A DNA stretch of 64,000 nucleotides, from positions 1-64,000 of the forward strand of contig QKFD01000026.1 in assembly GCA_003251535.1 (NCBI GenBank), in the 5' to 3' direction. The translations under genes and the position numbers were made by a program. Shown here in pieces: positions 42,938-62,446 of this stretch (within the stretch, counting starts at the first letter, position 1; each line of letters starts with the position of its first letter). A model generated the notes under the pieces. The model searched no databases, was not told the DNA's origin, and saw only the letters and a list, made by a program, of their open reading frames with translations. Origin of the DNA: Chromatiales bacterium. Lineage in GTDB: Bacteria; Pseudomonadota; Gammaproteobacteria; Thiohalomonadales; Thiohalomonadaceae.

Positions 42938-43447
42938 ATGGCAAAGAAAAAGGAGACCCCTCCCGATCTGGATCTCGACGCCGCCGGCAAAGCGGGCGGC
43001 GGCAAGAAGATGATCATCCTCTATGTCGTCATCGGTATCCTGGTCCTGGCGGTCGCTGGCCTTGGCACCCTGTTTGTCATGCGGCAGGGCGGCGAAGGCG
43101 GGGGCGAGGCGGCAGTGCATAAGAGCGAAGAGGCCTACTACATCCCGCTCGACTCCCTCACCGTCAACTTCAATGCCAAGGGGCCGGCCCGTTTTCTCCA
43201 GGTGGATATGCAGGCGATGGCCCATAGCGAGGAGGTGGGTCACCTACTGGAGATGCACAAGCCGGCCATTCGTAACGATCTCCTGCTGCTACTCGCCTCC
43301 CAGAGCTTTGATGTGGTGAGTACCCCAGAGGGCAAAGAGGCGCTGCGCCAGCAGGCCGTGGAGACCATCAACCGGGTCTTGTCGGAGCAGGCCAAGAGCC
43401 CCGAGCGGATCGAGACGGTCTACTTCACCAGCTTTGTGATGCAGTAG
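42938..43447 (+). CDS. fliL: flagellar basal-body-associated protein FliL
   Basis: FliL is a single-pass inner-membrane protein that surrounds stator units and supports torque or stator stability. The 169-residue product has a charged cytoplasmic N-terminus, one helix (MIILYVVIGILVLAVAGLGTLFV) and a periplasmic domain beginning EEAYYIPLDSLTVNFNAKGP. It ends with RIETVYFTSFVMQ. The ATG at 42938 is preferred to a TTG two codons earlier. It opens the fliLMNOPQR-flhB operon behind a sigma-54 promoter. Confidence 0.93.
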   Translation: MAKKKETPPDLDLDAAGKAGGGKKMIILYVVIGILVLAVAGLGTLFVMRQGGEGGGEAAVHKSEEAYYIPLDSLTVNFNAKGPARFLQVDMQAMAHSEEVGHLLEMHKPAIRNDLLLLLASQSFDVVSTPEGKEALRQQAVETINRVLSEQAKSPERIETVYFTSFVMQ

Positions 43448-43455
43448 GCGTCCCC

Positions 43456-44451
43456 ATGGCCATCAATGATCTGCTCTCCCAAGATGAGATCGATGCCCTC
43501 CTCCACGGTGTGACCGAGGGGGATATCGATACCGGTGCCGATGAGTTTGAAGAGGGGGAGGTCAGGGGCTACGACTTCACCAGCGAGGACCGTATTGTCC
43601 GCGGTCGGATGCCGACCCTGGAGATGGTCAACGAACGCTTCTCCCGCCACTTTCGCATCGCCCTATTCAACATGCTGCGCCGCTCCGCGGAGATCTCCGT
43701 GGGCGGGGTGGAGATGCTGAAGTTCTCTGAATATATCCACACCCTGTTTGTTCCCACCAGCCTCAACATGGTGCGGGTCAAACCGCTACGCGGCACCGCC
43801 TTGCTCGTGTTGGACCCAAAGTTGGTGTTCATCGTGGTGGACAACTTTTTTGGGGGTGATGGGCGTTACCACGCCAAGATCGAGGGGCGCGAGTTTACCC
43901 CCACCGAGCAGCGGGTGATCCAGATCCTGCTCAACCTCGCCTTTGCCGACCTGCACGAGGCGTGGGCGCCGGTCATGAAGCTCGACTTTGAGTACGTAAG
44001 CTCCGAGGTCAACCCGCAGTTTGCCAATATTGTTAGCCCCACTGAGGTGGTGGTGGTCTCCAAGTTCCACATCGAGCTGGAGGGGGGCGGCGGAGATATG
44101 CATGTCACCATGCCCTACTCCATGCTCGAACCGATGCGCGAGATCCTGGATGCCGGCGTGCAGTCTGACCGCAGCGATATCGACGAGCGCTGGATGGTGG
44201 CGCTGCGGGAGGAGGTGAAGAGCGCCGAGGTGGAGCTTTCCAGCACCCTCTGCGAGGCGCAGTTGACACTGCGTGACCTGGTCAATATGAAACCGGGCGA
44301 CGTCATTCCCATCGAGATGCCGGAGTTAGTGACCCTCCGTGCGGAGGGGATCCCCGTCTTCCGTGGCCGGCTCGGGGTGTTTGACGAGAACCTTGCCATC
44401 AAGATTATGCGGTCAGTGGAGCGGCCTATCGTCAGTAACCGCGGTCCTTAG
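43456..44451 (+). CDS. fliM: flagellar motor switch protein FliM
   Basis: FliM forms the middle of the C-ring and binds phosphorylated CheY to reverse rotation. The N-terminal CheY-binding peptide is LSQDEIDALLHGV. The middle domain includes MPTLEMVNERFSRHFRIALF and the switch-related GRYHAKIEGREFTPTEQRVI. A C-terminal SpoA domain contains LVNMKPGDVIPIEMPELV. Its 331 residues are typical. It lies eight bases after fliL and 12 bases before fliN. Confidence 0.97.
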   Translation: MAINDLLSQDEIDALLHGVTEGDIDTGADEFEEGEVRGYDFTSEDRIVRGRMPTLEMVNERFSRHFRIALFNMLRRSAEISVGGVEMLKFSEYIHTLFVPTSLNMVRVKPLRGTALLVLDPKLVFIVVDNFFGGDGRYHAKIEGREFTPTEQRVIQILLNLAFADLHEAWAPVMKLDFEYVSSEVNPQFANIVSPTEVVVVSKFHIELEGGGGDMHVTMPYSMLEPMREILDAGVQSDRSDIDERWMVALREEVKSAEVELSSTLCEAQLTLRDLVNMKPGDVIPIEMPELVTLRAEGIPVFRGRLGVFDENLAIKIMRSVERPIVSNRGP

Positions 44452-53752: not shown

Positions 53753-54139
53753 TTGGACAAAAATATCAAGATCCTCATCGTGGATGACTTCTCCACGATG
53801 CGGCGCATCATCAAGAACCTGCTACGCGATCTCGGTTTCAACAACACCGCTGAAGCCGACGACGGCAACACCGCCCTGCCCATGCTCCAACATGGGGGGT
53901 TTGATCTCCTCATCACCGATTGGAACATGCCCGGGATGCAGGGGATCGACCTCCTCAAGGCGGTACGTGCCGATGCCAAACTCGCCACCCTGCCGGTGCT
54001 CATGGTGACCGCTGAGCAGAAGCGCGAGCAGATTATCGAGGCGGCTCAGGCCGGGGTGAACGGCTATATCGTCAAGCCGTTTACCGCGGCCACGCTCAAA
54101 GAGAAGTTAGAGAAGATCTACGAGCGCCTTGGCAGTTGA
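53753..54139 (+). CDS. cheY: chemotaxis response regulator CheY
   Basis: CheY is the single-domain receiver that, when phosphorylated by CheA, binds FliM to change motor rotation. The 128-residue product has the acidic pocket [11 protein letters not shown], phospho-acceptor D56 in [13 protein letters not shown], the conserved threonine in [11 protein letters not shown] and the lysine in [11 protein letters not shown]. It starts with TTG at 53753 with CAGGAGG just upstream. A 108-base gap follows fliA; cheZ starts 38 bases after the stop. Confidence 0.96.
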
Positions 54140-54176
54140 TCTGCCTCGCCCACCTTACCCCAGGGGGGAATCTTTA

Positions 54177-54932
54177 GTGACCAAGTCCGATGACTTCGAG
54201 GGCCTGAAAGGGGAGTACTTTGCGCTGACCCGTGCACTGGTTGCCCATCTGGAGGCCAACGAGGATAGCCAGGCGGAACAGGTCCTCGACCAGATTACTC
54301 GGCTGCGGGAGCGCAGCCTGTTCCAAGAGCTTGGCAAGCTGACCCGAGAGTTTCACGAGGCACTCAATACCTTTCGCTTCGACTCGCGCATCGCCACCCT
54401 AACCGAGACCGATATCCCCGACGCCCGTCAGCGTCTCAACTACGTCATCACCATGACTGAGCAGTCGGCCAATCGCACCCTAGGGGCGATTGAGGAATCG
54501 ACCCCCATCTGCGATGGGCTGCATGAGGAGGCGTTGGCCATTCAGGCACAGTGGGAGCGGTTCATCGGTCGAGAACTGGATGCGGAGGAGTTTCGGCAGC
54601 TGGCGCGCCGGCTCTCCCAGTTTCTGGCCCTGCTACCGGAGAGCACCGACCGGGTTAAGACCAATCTCAATGACGTCTTAATGGCGCAGGATTTCCAGGA
54701 TCTCACCGGGCAGATCATCCGCAAGGTGATTACTCTGGTGGAGGAGCTGGAGCGCAATCTAGTGGACCTAGTGCGGATCTCCGGGCAGAAGTTTATTCAG
54801 CAACCCAAAGAGGAGATAGAGGAGGAGGGGCCCGACATCTCTCCTTCCGGTCCACCGGTTCCTGGCGTGGATCAGGGTACCGTCTCCGGCCAGGACGAGG
54901 TGGACGATCTGCTGTCGAGCCTCGGTTTCTGA
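54177..54932 (+). CDS. cheZ: CheY-P phosphatase CheZ
   Basis: CheZ speeds removal of phosphate from CheY and so shortens the motor signal. The 251-residue, mostly helical protein has the catalytic glutamine region LMAQDFQDLTGQIIRKVITL and the C-terminal CheY-binding peptide QDEVDDLLSSLGF. The GTG at 54177 is chosen because GGGGGG lies about eight bases upstream; an in-frame start at 54129 would overlap cheY. It is followed 12 bases later by cheA. Confidence 0.95.
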   Translation: MTKSDDFEGLKGEYFALTRALVAHLEANEDSQAEQVLDQITRLRERSLFQELGKLTREFHEALNTFRFDSRIATLTETDIPDARQRLNYVITMTEQSANRTLGAIEESTPICDGLHEEALAIQAQWERFIGRELDAEEFRQLARRLSQFLALLPESTDRVKTNLNDVLMAQDFQDLTGQIIRKVITLVEELERNLVDLVRISGQKFIQQPKEEIEEEGPDISPSGPPVPGVDQGTVSGQDEVDDLLSSLGF

Positions 54933-54944
54933 GGAGTAGACCAC

Positions 54945-57446
54945 ATGGCGGCGTTAGACGCGGATGACGAGATCCTCCAGGACTTCCTGGTGGAGGCCAG
55001 CGAGATCCTTGAGCGGCTGAATGAACAGTTGGTCGAGTTGGAGCAGCGGGCCGATGATAAAGAGCTGCTGAACGCGGTATTTCGAGGCTTCCACACCATC
55101 AAGGGCGGAGCGGGGTTCCTCAACCTCACTGCCTTGGTGGATGTCTGCCATCGAGCCGAGGACGTGTTCAACAAGCTGCGTAACGGCGAGTTGAGTGTCA
55201 GTGCCGAGATGATGGACACCATGCTACCGGTGCTGGACGTGCTGAACGCCCAGTTCGAGTCGTTGCGTGCCATGGAGGAGCCGGCACCGGCTGAGGCAGA
55301 GCTGCTGGAGCGGTTGGAGGCCATCGCCCGAGGTGAGGCGCCCGCTGCGGGGGCTGTAGATGAGATTGAGGCGCTAGAGGTCGAGCCGTCGGCGGTCATT
55401 ACGCCATCTATCCAACCGCCCCCAGCGGGTGGTATGGCCGAGCCGGAGCTACCACCGCCAAGCGGTGCCGCGGAGGTTGCCCCCACCCCCACCCCCACCG
55501 CTGGCGGGGCGGGTTGGGCGATGGCCGGTGGGGAGCCAGATGGCGATATCACCGACGAGGAGTTTGAGGCGCTGCTCCACGCCCTGGAGACCCCGGGGGC
55601 GCCGGCCGCTGCTGAGGCAGAGTTGGCCGCCGCCATCGCCGAGCCGGCACCGCCACCTGCCGCCAGTGACGAGATCACCGAGGAGGAGTTTGAGGCGCTG
55701 TTGGATCAGCTCCACGGCAAGGGGCAGTTCCATGGGGCGCCATCACCGGAGGTGGGCGCCGCTGACGAGGATGGGGCGGGGGGGCGTGCTGAGCCGCCGC
55801 CAGTCGCCAGCGACGAGATCACCGAAGAGGAGTTTGAGGCGCTACTGGATCAGCTCCACGGCAAAGGCCAATTTAAGGGGGCGTTACCGCCCATAGCCGA
55901 GCAGACGGCCACCCCGCCTACGGAGACGCCTGCCCCACCCACTGCCGGGGTGGATAGCGGTGAGCCGCCTGCCGTGGCCAGTGACGAGATCACCGAGGAG
56001 GAGTTTGAGGCGCTGCTGGATCAGCTCCATGGTAAGGGGCAGTTCCACGGGATGCCGGCCGGGGCCGCAGCCGGTGGCACTCCACCCCCTACCACCCCCC
56101 CTCCACCCGCTGCCTCGGCCGCTGGGGCCGCGGAGACGCCTCCCCCCTCAGCCAAACAACCGCCTGCCGCCAAGCGGGCTGAGCCGAGCCGACCCACCCC
56201 CGCCAGCCGGCCGGCGGAGGAGGAGCGGGAGACCAAAAAGCCCGCCGCCGAGCAGAGCGAGACCACGGTTCGGGTCGATACCAAGCGGCTCGATGACATC
56301 ATGAACATGGTGGGTGAGCTGGTCCTGGTGCGTAACCGCCTGGCCACCATCGCCAACCTGGAGCAGGCCGACACCACCCAGTCCCGCGAGCAGCTGCTGA
56401 AGACCGTGGCCAATCTGGATGTCGTCACCGGTGATCTCCAGGCCGCGGTGATGAAGACCCGGATGCAGCCCATCAAAAAGGTGTTCGGTCGCTTCCCGCG
56501 GGTGGTGCGCGATCTCGCCCGCTCCCTCAAGAAAGAGGTGCATCTGGAGCTACAGGGCGAAGAGACCGATCTCGACAAGAATCTAGTCGAGGCGCTGGCC
56601 GATCCCCTGGTCCATCTGGTGCGCAACGCGGTGGATCACGGCATTGAAATGCCCGATATGCGCACCAAGGCGGGCAAATCTGCCTCTGGTACCCTGCGCC
56701 TCTCCGCGGAGCAGGAGGGGGATCACATCCTCTTGGTCGTGGAGGATGATGGGGCCGGGATGAACCCCGAGGTGCTGCGGCGCAAGGCGGTGGAGAAGGG
56801 GATGATGGACGCCGATGCCGCGGCCCGCCTGGACGATAAAGAGGCGTTCATGCTCATCATGGCGCCCGGCTTCTCCACCAAGACGGAGATCTCCGATATC
56901 TCCGGGCGTGGCGTGGGGATGGATGTGGTCAAGACCCGCATCGCCCAGCTCAACGGCAGCATCGATATCGACTCGGTGATCGGCAAGGGGACCCGGCTCT
57001 CCATCAAGGTGCCGCTCACCCTCGCCATTATGCCGACCCTCATGGTGAAGCTGCGGGAGCAGACCTTCGCCCTGCCGCTGGTCTCGGTCAGCGAGATCTT
57101 CCATCTCGACCTCACCCGCACCAACGTGGTAGACGGCCAACTGGTGGTGATGGTGCGGGAGAAGGCACTGCCGCTGTTCTATCTCACCCGCTGGCTGGTA
57201 CGCAGCATGGCCTATGAGAAGCTGCCGAAGACCGGCCATGTGGTGGTGGTGCATGTTGGCACCCAACTGGTCGGCTTCGTGGTGGATCACCTCATTGGGC
57301 AGGAGGAGGTGGTGATCAAGCCCTTGGGCAGTATGCTGCAAGGGACCCCAGGGATGGCGGGGGCCACCATCACTGGCGATGGCAAGATCGCCCTCATCCT
57401 GGATGTCCCGGGTTTGATGAGGGCCTACGCCCGTCGCGGCGCCTAA
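54945..57446 (+). CDS. cheA: chemotaxis histidine kinase CheA with repeated linker motif
   Basis: CheA phosphorylates itself in response to receptors and passes the phosphate to CheY and CheB. The P1 domain (1-110) has the substrate histidine H50 in FRGFHTIKGGAGFL. No P2 domain is recognisable. Instead the 300-residue linker carries a divergent copy at about 201 and three near-identical 25-residue repeats at 240-264, 288-312 and 345-369 (EITEEEFEALLDQLHGKG). P3 dimerisation starts near 438 (RVDTKRLDDIMNMVGELVLV). P4 has NAVDHGIEMPD and GRGVGMDVVKTRI, and P5 is CheW-like to residue 833. The repeats may bind ParP or CheY. Confidence 0.96.
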   Translation: MAALDADDEILQDFLVEASEILERLNEQLVELEQRADDKELLNAVFRGFHTIKGGAGFLNLTALVDVCHRAEDVFNKLRNGELSVSAEMMDTMLPVLDVLNAQFESLRAMEEPAPAEAELLERLEAIARGEAPAAGAVDEIEALEVEPSAVITPSIQPPPAGGMAEPELPPPSGAAEVAPTPTPTAGGAGWAMAGGEPDGDITDEEFEALLHALETPGAPAAAEAELAAAIAEPAPPPAASDEITEEEFEALLDQLHGKGQFHGAPSPEVGAADEDGAGGRAEPPPVASDEITEEEFEALLDQLHGKGQFKGALPPIAEQTATPPTETPAPPTAGVDSGEPPAVASDEITEEEFEALLDQLHGKGQFHGMPAGAAAGGTPPPTTPPPPAASAAGAAETPPPSAKQPPAAKRAEPSRPTPASRPAEEERETKKPAAEQSETTVRVDTKRLDDIMNMVGELVLVRNRLATIANLEQADTTQSREQLLKTVANLDVVTGDLQAAVMKTRMQPIKKVFGRFPRVVRDLARSLKKEVHLELQGEETDLDKNLVEALADPLVHLVRNAVDHGIEMPDMRTKAGKSASGTLRLSAEQEGDHILLVVEDDGAGMNPEVLRRKAVEKGMMDADAAARLDDKEAFMLIMAPGFSTKTEISDISGRGVGMDVVKTRIAQLNGSIDIDSVIGKGTRLSIKVPLTLAIMPTLMVKLREQTFALPLVSVSEIFHLDLTRTNVVDGQLVVMVREKALPLFYLTRWLVRSMAYEKLPKTGHVVVVHVGTQLVGFVVDHLIGQEEVVIKPLGSMLQGTPGMAGATITGDGKIALILDVPGLMRAYARRGA
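55545..56051 (+). repeat. repeated ~25-residue acidic motif in the CheA linker
   Basis: Three 75-bp copies (55662-55736, 55806-55880, 55977-56051) encode A-S-D-E-I-T-E-E-E-F-E-A-L-L-D-Q-L-H plus GKGQF(H/K)G, differing at one residue. A shorter divergent copy (DITDEEFEALLHALE) lies at 55545-55601. Spacers are Pro/Ala-rich. The units look like linear docking motifs repeated by duplication. Confidence 0.92.
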
Positions 57447-59479: not shown

Positions 59480-60382
59480 ATGAAAAAAGGCGAGAGACGG
59501 CGTTCGCGCCACCGTCGCATTATCGATCGGGCGCAGGCGTACCACGATATGCCACGTAAACGTCGCCATGAAGAGCATGAGAACCTGGAGCGGTGGCTGA
59601 TCTCCTACGCCGACTTCATCACCCTGCTGTTTGCCTTTTTTGTGGTCATGTACGCCGTCTCCTCCATCAATGAAGGTAAGTATCGGGTGCTCTCCGATAC
59701 CCTGGTCTCCGCCTTCAATACCCAGCCCAAGAGCCTGCAACCGATCCAGGTGGGTATGGATGGGATGCAGGGGGATCCGGCCGCCATCAACAAGCCGGAG
59801 CGGCTCTCTGGGGGGAAACCGAGCGTCATCGAGATGTTGCGTCAGACGGCGCAGTCAGACGCCTTGGCCCGCATCGCCACCGATTTTGAGAGCGCCCTGG
59901 CGCCGCTCATCAATGAAGACCTCATCAAGGTCACCAAGAACGACCTCTGGGTGGAGATCGAGATCAACACCAGCATTTTGTTTGACTCTGGCAGCGCTCG
60001 ACTCTCGGCCCAGTCGCAGCCGGTACTCGCCTCCATCGCGGGGATCCTCCAGCGCTACCCCAACCACCTCCAAGTGGAGGGGTTCACCGATAACCTCCCC
60101 ATCTCCACCGAGGTGTTCCCCTCCAACTGGGAGCTATCGGCGGCGCGGGCGGCCAGCGTGGTCCACCTTTTTATGACCAACGGGGTCCAGCCGGAGCGCA
60201 TGGCGGCCATCGGTTACGGTGAGTATCGGCCGGTGGCCGACAACGCCACGGCCGATGGGCGGCAGCAGAACCGCCGGGTCTCGGTGGTGGTACTGGCCGA
60301 TGCCAACGCCCGCAAGGCGCTCGACATCGAACGCAATCGGGCCACGACGGGTGACAACTCGGTGGCGGAGTCGAAGCCATGA
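59480..60382 (+). CDS. motD: flagellar motor stator protein MotD (MotB family)
   Basis: MotD anchors the stator to peptidoglycan. The 300-residue product has a basic N-terminus (KKGERRRSRHRRIIDRA), one membrane helix with the proton-binding aspartate (LISYADFITLLFAFFVVMYA) and an OmpA-like domain. That domain contains ILFDSGSARLSAQSQPVLAS, HLQVEGFTDNLPISTEVFPS and GYGEYRPVADNATADGRQQN. It overlaps parC by four bases, so stator and array-placement genes are co-expressed. Confidence 0.94.
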   Translation: MKKGERRRSRHRRIIDRAQAYHDMPRKRRHEEHENLERWLISYADFITLLFAFFVVMYAVSSINEGKYRVLSDTLVSAFNTQPKSLQPIQVGMDGMQGDPAAINKPERLSGGKPSVIEMLRQTAQSDALARIATDFESALAPLINEDLIKVTKNDLWVEIEINTSILFDSGSARLSAQSQPVLASIAGILQRYPNHLQVEGFTDNLPISTEVFPSNWELSAARAASVVHLFMTNGVQPERMAAIGYGEYRPVADNATADGRQQNRRVSVVVLADANARKALDIERNRATTGDNSVAESKP

Positions 60383-61182
60383 AGATCTGGGCCGTGGCCA
60401 ATCAGAAAGGGGGGGTCGGGAAGACCACCACCGTGGTCACCCTGGCCGGCTTACTGAGCCAACAGGGGCAGCGGGTGCTGGTGGTGGATCTGGACCCCCA
60501 CGGCTCCCTCACCACCTACTTCGGCTTCGATCCCGATACCCTGGAGCGGAGTGTCTATACCCTCTTCCAGGCCACCGCCGCGGAGCAACGGCCCGATCCG
60601 GAGGCGCTCCTGCGCCCCACCCGTTTCGAGCCACTACGACTCCTACCCGCCTCCACCGCACTGGCGACCCTCGATCGCCAATTGGGGTCACGGGAGGGGA
60701 TGGGCCTGGTACTGGCCCGCGCCCTGCAAGCACTGGCCGGTCAGTTCGATCACATCTTCATCGACTGTCCACCCGTGGTGGGGGTGCTGATGATCAACGC
60801 CATGGCCGCCTGCCAGCACCTGCTTATCCCCGTACAGACGGAGTTTCTCGCGCTCAAGGGGCTGGAGCGGATGATGCGCACCTTGGCCATGGTGCTGCGG
60901 GCGCGCAAACGGCCGTTGGCCTACACCATCATTCCCACCATGTTCGATCGCCACATCCGCTCCGCGGCGGAGGCGCTGACCCAGCTGCGGCAGAACTATC
61001 CAGAGGCGGTCTGGCAGTCGGTTATCCCGGTAGACGCCCTGTTCCGCGAGGCGAGTCGGGAGGGGATCCCCCTCTCCATCTCCAACCCAACTGCCCGTGG
61101 CACCATCGCCTATGGGGCGCTGCTGGCCGATCTCCTCCATGGGGGGCATGAGGCGGCGCTGCCCCAGGTGCAGCAGGCATGA
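60379..61182 (+). CDS. parC: ParA-like ATPase for chemosensory array placement (ParC)
   Basis: In Vibrio, ParC is a ParA-like ATPase that places chemosensory arrays at the cell pole and segregates them at division. The 267-residue protein has the ParA Walker A VANQKGGVGKTTTVVTLAG, the signature lysine, VLVVDLDPHGSLTTYFGF and IFIDCPPVVGVLMINAMAA. The place between motD and parP, with four-base overlaps, fits this role better than plasmid or chromosome partition. It should not be confused with topoisomerase IV ParC. Confidence 0.9.
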   Translation: MKIWAVANQKGGVGKTTTVVTLAGLLSQQGQRVLVVDLDPHGSLTTYFGFDPDTLERSVYTLFQATAAEQRPDPEALLRPTRFEPLRLLPASTALATLDRQLGSREGMGLVLARALQALAGQFDHIFIDCPPVVGVLMINAMAACQHLLIPVQTEFLALKGLERMMRTLAMVLRARKRPLAYTIIPTMFDRHIRSAAEALTQLRQNYPEAVWQSVIPVDALFREASREGIPLSISNPTARGTIAYGALLADLLHGGHEAALPQVQQA

Positions 61183-61883
61183 GCGAGAAGCGCGAACTGG
61201 CCCCGACCACGCTGCTGGATGAGCGGGACGCCCTGAGCTTCTACCTGGAGGCGCTGCTGCGCGAGGTCCCGACGTTGGATGAGGAGCCTGCGCCTGGGGT
61301 GGTGGCGCCCGCACCACCCACCCCGGCGCCGCCCGCGCCCACTCTGGCCCCCCCGGCAACGCAGACGCAGCCGGCGGTGGTGGCCACGGCCATCATCCCC
61401 GACTGGGCCAGTGAACGCTTTCCGGTACTGCTCTTTAAATGCGGTGGCCTCACCTTGGCGGTGCCGCTGGTGGAGCTATCTGGGGTGCAGGAGTGGAAGG
61501 GGGAGCGGATCACCCCCATGCCCGGCCACTCCCAAGCCTTTCTCGGTCTGACCCTCTACCGCGGCCGCAACGTGCCGGTGGTAGATACCGCCCGTCTGGT
61601 CCTACCAGAGGATAAACTGGCCCGCCTGGAGAGCAGTGCGGCGGAGCGGGTGCGGCGCATCGTCTTCATCGAGGATGGCAGTTGGGGACTGGCCTGCGAT
61701 GAGGTGGCCGAGGTGGTCAGTTTGGCGCCGGATCAGGTGCGCTGGCGCACCAGCCGCACCCGGCGCAAGTGGTTGGCCGGCACCGTCATCGAACATATGT
61801 GTGCCCTCATCGATCCACCGAAATTTGCCGAGATGTTGGCCACTGGCCAAGAGGATGAGGTGGCGGTGGGGCGTAGCGATTGA
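61179..61883 (+). CDS. parP: CheW-domain array tether ParP
   Basis: ParP links ParC at the pole to CheA and the receptors, as known from Vibrio. The 234-residue protein has a helical N-terminal part that would contact ParC (LLDERDALSFYLEALLREVP), a Pro/Ala-rich linker (about 32-66) and a CheW-like domain. The latter contains FPVLLFKCGGLTLAVPLVEL, AFLGLTLYRGRNVPVVDTAR and WGLACDEVAEVVSLAPDQV. It is not a plain CheW because of the long N-terminal arm. It overlaps parC by four bases. Confidence 0.88.
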   Translation: MSEKRELAPTTLLDERDALSFYLEALLREVPTLDEEPAPGVVAPAPPTPAPPAPTLAPPATQTQPAVVATAIIPDWASERFPVLLFKCGGLTLAVPLVELSGVQEWKGERITPMPGHSQAFLGLTLYRGRNVPVVDTARLVLPEDKLARLESSAAERVRRIVFIEDGSWGLACDEVAEVVSLAPDQVRWRTSRTRRKWLAGTVIEHMCALIDPPKFAEMLATGQEDEVAVGRSD

Positions 61884-61969
61884 ACCGATAGCGGCGGCTA
61901 TCTTGGGGGTCCCTCCCGCCCCATGGGTGGGCGGAGGTGCCGGGCCTGATCCACAGCAACGGAGGGGAG

Positions 61970-62446
61970 ATGAGCGATAAGGCAGCAGCATCCCACAGCG
62001 TCGATACCGTCACCCAGTGGGTCACCTTCCGCTTGGGGGCCGAGAAATATGGGGTCAACGTCATGCACGTCAAGGAGGTGCTGCGTGAGTCGGAGATCGC
62101 CCCGGTGCCCGGAGCCCCCGATTTTGTGCTCGGCATTATCAACCTGCGTGGCAACGTGGTCACCGTGATTGACACCCGCAAGCGCTTCGCCTTGGAAGAG
62201 AAGGAGCCGGATGATGCCACCCGCATTGTCATCATCGAGATGGATGACCAGGTGGTGGGGATGCAGGTGGATGCGGTGGCGGAGGTGCTGGATATCGCCG
62301 ACTCACAGGTGGAGCTGGCCCCCAATGTGGGCAACGACGAGAGTTCCAAATATATCCAGGGGGTGAGCCAGCAGGACAATGAGCTGGTGATCTTGGTGGG
62401 GTTGGAGAAGCTGCTCCGGGCTGAAAGTAGCTGGGCAGCGGATTGA
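61970..62446 (+). CDS. cheW: chemotaxis coupling protein CheW (copy 2)
   Basis: This 158-residue coupling protein links receptors to CheA in the main array. The CheW core includes VTFRLGAEKYGVNVMHVKEV, APVPGAPDFVLGIINLRGNV and VDAVAEVLDIADSQVELAP. The ATG at 61970 follows GGAGGGGAG; an in-frame ATG at 61937 would add 11 unlikely residues. It is paralogous to the cheW at 34886-35377. It lies 86 bases after parP and 13 bases before the DUF2802 gene. Confidence 0.95.
   Translation: MSDKAAASHSVDTVTQWVTFRLGAEKYGVNVMHVKEVLRESEIAPVPGAPDFVLGIINLRGNVVTVIDTRKRFALEEKEPDDATRIVIIEMDDQVVGMQVDAVAEVLDIADSQVELAPNVGNDESSKYIQGVSQQDNELVILVGLEKLLRAESSWAAD

Follow-up and report, generated by a model that had tools for sequence, protein, structure and literature searches.

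Repeated FliM-like peptides in the P1–P3 linker of F6-type CheA: candidate CheY-docking sites in place of P2

The C-terminal peptide of CheZ, the N-terminal peptide of FliM and the P2 domain of CheA all bind E. coli CheY on the same surface, its alpha4-beta5-alpha5 face. P2 (PF07194/PF09078) is a folded domain positioned between P1 and P3, and more than half of CheAs are without it (PMC10782961), the Pfam models of P2 being known as insensitive (PMC10782961). For F6 CheA a further linker element, the CheA-LID, has been placed between P2 and P3, where it binds ParP (PMC5706961, PMC7534058). Here we describe a linker peptide that occurs in one to five copies throughout a class of CheA to which the Pseudomonas, Vibrio and Shewanella proteins belong, and that offers a directly testable answer to the question of how P2-less CheAs hold CheY. 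The survey also tells the proposed CheY role of the linker apart from its ParP role: species such as Dyella and Acidithiobacillus have these units without ParC/ParP.

The F6-type operon and the four linker units of its CheA

The window, which is the whole stretch of 64,000 nucleotides analyzed here from a Chromatiales bacterium, harbors a complete F6-type chemotaxis operon comprising fliA, cheY (53753..54139), cheZ (54129..54932), cheA (54945..57446, 833 aa), cheB, motC, motD, parC (60379..61182), parP (61179..61883) and cheW (61937..62446), all those with coordinates lying on the + strand. The product of parC is a ParA-like polar ATPase; in that of parP, a Pro/Ala-rich N-terminus precedes a CheW-like AIF domain. 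In CheA, P1/Hpt (residues 9-108) is followed by a Pro/Ala-rich linker of about 300 residues (~130-438), P3 (440-505), P4 (553-692) and P5 (699-826). The presence of P1, P3, P4 and P5, the lack of P2, the cheYZAB-(motCD)-parC-parP-cheW operon and the gammaproteobacterial origin all agree with the F6 type, a class name that is taken here from the literature (PMC10782961, PMC7184735) and not from a class tree. The absence of P2 claimed in a preliminary description of this DNA held up, as Pfam detected no P2 in the window CheA or in 37 relatives, with P1, P3, P4 and P5 detected in all 38 of these F6 CheAs. A second CheA encoded in this genome, which may or may not have a P2, gave matches to P1 and P3-P5 only in a sequence search of PDB.

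An AlphaFold2 run on the full-length CheA with the 37 relatives gave confident P1, P3, P4 and P5 domains and a linker with pLDDT values mostly below 50, in which no P2 fold was predicted and exactly four helices of 11-12 residues (pLDDT ~70-81) stood out, one on each of four repeated units. The preliminary description had reported three near-identical 25-residue units and a divergent fourth in the P1-P3 linker. The three were confirmed: units 2 (55665..55730, helix 246-257), 3 (55809..55874, helix 294-304) and 4 (55980..56045, helix 351-361), all on the + strand and all reading SDEITEEEFEALLDQLHGKGQF, share the 25-mer ASDEITEEEFEALLDQLHGKGQF[HK]G, with a single variable residue. The divergent unit exists too, but it is really the first one (unit 1, 55539..55604, + strand, DGDITDEEFEALLHALE..., helix 204-214), and it belongs to a conserved type, GDITDEEFEALLDALE, that is the leading unit of the linker in most family relatives. 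Family orthologues of the window CheA usually carry three units in a fixed order, GDITDEEFEALLDALE and then two of the DEITEEEFEALLDxLHGKGxF type, so that the oddity of the window amounts to a single additional unit of the common type, and the copy number of four versus three in close relatives is ordinary variation.

The codons of units 2 to 4 were compared with one another. The 22 codons that they have in common contain 10 variable sites, every one synonymous and none non-synonymous; in the codons flanking the cores, differences mostly change the residue. Unit 4 is 3 nt away from unit 2, and unit 3 is 8-9 nt away from these two. As the differences are silent only, the copies are not merely a fresh DNA duplication and, judging from these codons, selection acts on the unit peptide. 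Tandem Repeats Finder reported no array in the CheA linker because unrelated spacers separate the units, and a DNA pattern with the exact codons of the unit gave no match.

Conservation in the linker follows the units: where 70% or more of 38 relatives agree on a linker residue, that residue almost always falls inside a unit. When 264 units were aligned on their EF pair, conservation reached 99% for L13, 94% for D14 and 92% for I4 and L12, with L16 nearly constant, and the resulting pattern is that of a short helix with a single hydrophobic stripe and an acidic N-terminal half. No chain resembling the unit was found among solved structures. With a cut-off of 5 bits, a unit profile had 267 matches in a set of 105 CheA linkers (all the delimitable linkers of the class sample, the window and six family loci, related genomes included and thus not independent) and none in 20-fold shuffled linkers, so the units are not due to chance.

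Likeness of the units to CheY-binding peptides

The closest parallel of the unit is the N-terminal CheY-binding peptide of FliM, of a type that prefers CheY-P and that in the same genome reads DLLSQDEIDALLHGV (fliM reading frame, 43312..44448, + strand). The unit core, [IL][TS]x[DE]E[FI][DE]ALL, aligns in register with this peptide, and an hhalign comparison of unit and FliM-N gave P=5.5e-5, again in register and better than 166 of 166 non-unit control windows drawn from ParC, ParP and CheA (one further window, overlapping a unit, was set aside). For reference, reversed FliM-N scored 0.079 and the two known CheY ligands FliM-N and CheZ-C scored 5.7e-7 against each other. With a substitution-matrix profile, the best FliM-N-like 14-mer falls on a unit in 103 of the 105 linkers. 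The chance of the match between the 11-mer core and FliM-N is about 5e-5 per window, for a likeness that spans some 11 residues and consists in part of generic helix-cap features, and the units go undetected by a narrow HMM made only of gammaproteobacterial FliM sequences. Unit and FliM peptide (EIDALL motif, within the core LSQxEIDALL) appear to have in common a core in equal register and an acidic amphipathic helix; they differ in that the FliM peptide is N-terminal, whereas the units are internal, come in 1-5 copies, have F for I at position 9 and extend into DxLHGKG.

A weaker parallel is provided by the C-terminal CheY-binding peptide of CheZ (core QDxVDDLLSSLGF; here VSGQDEVDDLLSSLGF), whose ExDxLLxxLxx helix also lies in register with the unit (P=7.5e-4), a similarity that two control windows equal and that is therefore within background. 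This peptide is C-terminal and single, unlike the internal, repeated units. As for P2, the units share its position between P1 and P3 and, as proposed below, its job, but P2 is a folded domain, whereas the units are short helices with no match to its Pfam models in the 38 CheAs.

We propose that the units would act as short linear CheY-docking peptides distributed along the disordered P1-P3 linker, replacing the missing P2 in F6-type CheA. Each would form a short helix of amphipathic character, with I4, F9, L12, L13 and L16 as its stripe and an acidic N-terminal half, and would dock to CheY at its alpha4-beta5-alpha5 face, as P2 and the peptides of FliM and CheZ do. Strung along a flexible linker, one to five such weak sites would concentrate CheY near phospho-P1. 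Being like FliM-N and not like P2, the units might hold CheY-P as well, and in this way compete with the motor or buffer it. We give about even chances to the proposal that the units are multivalent linear CheY-docking peptides standing in for P2, its binding, face and effect on phosphotransfer being drawn from sequence and predicted structure. CheY sites in place of P2 were among the functions suggested in the preliminary description, and this one is favored by the lack of P2, the helices in a disordered linker, the register match to FliM-N and the persistence of CheY described below; the binding itself is what we infer from them.

The same unit residues match Pfam SHOCT (PF09851) better, by its own statistics, than they match FliM-N. 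Units and SHOCT share the half-motif ITxEEFE, and a SHOCT match was obtained in 24 of the 38 F6 CheAs, so we considered that the units might be SHOCT-like helices mediating homotypic contacts or condensation of CheA. The match covers only positions 11-27 of the 28 in the profile, the first half of the domain being missing from the units, 14 of the 38 CheAs lack it, and the prediction is of a single 11-residue helix with no sign of pairing. Membership of the units in SHOCT was rejected on the grounds of this partial match to the second half of the profile, and a SHOCT-like function appears to us the most improbable of the readings considered.

Distribution of the units and their relation to ParC and ParP

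A CheA of the F6 kind was found in 145 of 370 class-sample genomes, and for 100 of these 145 about 4-18 kb around cheA were read. No linker among the 105 lacked units: six had one, 43 had two, 49 had three and seven had four. A profile search of 115 whole genomes of the class found units in 42, in frames of CheA size or shorter, the latter likely split CheA genes, the exception being a borderline match (E 0.009) in genome G085. In the window's own genome the four units were the only significant matches, its five other CheAs being without units. Named genomes had three or four units in Pseudomonas, three in Vibrio, Shewanella, Alteromonas and Dyella, two in Stenotrophomonas and Acidithiobacillus, and five in one MAG. 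Units were absent from 33 CheAs of other classes or phyla, and by this sequence survey the unit is a hallmark of gammaproteobacterial F6-type CheAs as a class. A contig titled as a Klebsiella pneumoniae MAG (L273) also encodes an F6 CheA with units, together with ParC, and is probably mis-binned.

The preliminary description had also put forward the units as docking sites for ParP. Under such a reading the units would be the CheA-LID, bound by the AIF domain of ParP so that CheA is tethered to the polar ParC anchor and arrays are stabilized, with additional copies adding avidity. The linker before P3, the type of operon and the F6 CheA all match those of the Vibrio LID; parC and parP lie in cheA's own operon here; and the units are essentially the sole conserved part of the linker stretch in which the published ParP-binding LID is located. 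With nothing else conserved in this stretch, the units may coincide in part with the LID, in which case the motif would be partly known under another name. A literature search for the motif letters of the unit found no text, the original 2014 description of the LID being outside its scope.

To our knowledge the CheA-LID has been described as restricted to species with ParC/ParP. The motif count was compared with the presence of parC and parP, a comparison set beforehand as the refuting test, and 14 genomes with neither ParC nor ParP were found to retain 1-4 units, several of them being near-complete or complete. Ten are class-sample genomes, belonging to f50 (three genomes, with 3, 2 and 3 units), f21 (two, with 1 each), f2 (4 units), f9 (2), f88 (2), f137 (2) and f164 (1). 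The other four are the named genomes of Dyella acidisoli, Dyella monticola, Acidithiobacillus sp. YTS05 (a complete chromosome) and a Hydrocarboniphaga MAG. Absence was called when the best ParP candidate scored no higher than ordinary CheW and the best ParC candidate no higher than chromosomal ParA, control genomes giving 415-453 bits for ParC and 208-269 bits for ParP; most of these class-sample genomes reach a completeness of 95% or more, G020 stands at 91%, and MAGs are included. One genome that looked ParP-less (G298, locus L076) was excluded from the count, as its cheA, parC and parP are all broken by stops or frameshifts that are probably sequencing or assembly errors.

In view of these genomes, ParP docking does not suffice as the sole function of the units. 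On the other hand, ParP may be a second partner, since conservation within the LID region is confined to the units and copy number is slightly higher with ParC/ParP (mean 2.63) than without (2.10; p=0.054, phylogeny uncorrected). No counterpart of the unit profile was found in ParP. Taken with the 14 genomes, this makes an identity of the units with a ParP-specific LID unlikely.

Retention of the units was also followed against the other components. CheY was found in loci reaching that part of the operon. Units are kept in two f21 genomes without detectable CheZ at the locus, and genome G050 (one contig, scored 100% complete), with neither FliM nor flagellin, keeps three. Since units persist without ParC/ParP, without a CheZ detected at the locus and without FliM, the remaining candidate partners are CheY and CheW; CheW is present wherever the locus is complete, and co-occurrence cannot separate the two. 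The cluster of G050 itself (L050, G050:C1:2589100-2606800) is a full F6 che cluster, with CheY, CheZ, ParC, ParP and CheA, despite the lack of FliM and flagellin.

The constant presence of CheW would suit a reading in which the units bind CheW-fold proteins generally (CheW, CheV and the AIF domain of ParP, which has the CheW fold), hooking CheA into CheW-rich baseplates, and the F6 baseplates of V. cholerae are indeed CheW-rich and CheA-poor (PMC7534058). However, CheW is already bound by P5, and the unit resembles FliM-N, with none of the known CheW ligands matching it in sequence, so we hold this reading to be very unlikely.

Regarding CheY as the ligand, the window protein has R92, Q94, V103 and K117 (E. 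coli numbering), which are the F6 majority residues. A published comparison found positions 92, 94, 103 and 117 altered in CheY that partners a P2-bearing F7 CheA, and placed several of them on the side facing P2 or FliM (PMC7184735). CheA class and units coincide fully, so that such changes are confounded with phylogeny. In the f50 and f88 genomes without ParC/ParP the DxLHG tail of the units is lost or changed and CheY has N or A instead of K at 117, which represents one or two events at most and serves as a lead. Among the loci read, N or A at CheY 117 occurs only where the units have lost or changed this tail (L120/L207 and L100, L101, L106).

The altered tails bear as well on a dual role, in which CheY docking would be ancestral and ParP, a CheW-like latecomer, would recognize the unit helix or its LHGKG tail where ParP is present. 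Binding of CheY everywhere and of ParP where present would account for both the ParP-independent retention and the published contact of ParP with the LID, and is compatible with all the data; however, the LHG tail is kept in most ParP-less genomes. From these sequence patterns we consider the dual role rather improbable, and CheY docking remains the reading we prefer.

Linker peptides in other P2-less CheAs

A broader form of the CheY-docking proposal is that, in the F6 class including Pseudomonas, Vibrio and Shewanella, tandem FliM-like CheY-binding peptides replaced the folded P2, so that kinase and motor would compete for one CheY face with like peptides, and that other P2-less classes may have linker peptides of their own, such as MSxEEVEAEIERLL in Campylobacterota. 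We advance it tentatively, at somewhat less than even chances. Should the Campylobacterota motif and the betaproteobacterial one described here prove to be CheY ligands too, linear docking peptides would be the way in which P2-less CheAs in general make up for that domain.

The P2-less CheAs of Campylobacterota (L288, L292, L284, L286, L315) have one or two linker copies of DYxNMSxEEVEAEIERLL. This motif starts in a FliM-N-like manner, its best windows score near a unit against FliM-N in 3 of 5 proteins, and helices were placed there in a low-quality model from five sequences. A single short linker motif, PDWxALHxAVTG, was found in betaproteobacterial P2-less CheAs (L297, L302, L305, L306, L307, L309, L310). 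The CheA linkers of Nitrospiria, Deltaproteobacteria and Gemmatimonadetes (L291, L303, L319, L282), with no Pfam match, carry IGEILVxxGxIxxxxLxxALxxQ repeats that recall the N-terminal repeats of MshEN/GspE.
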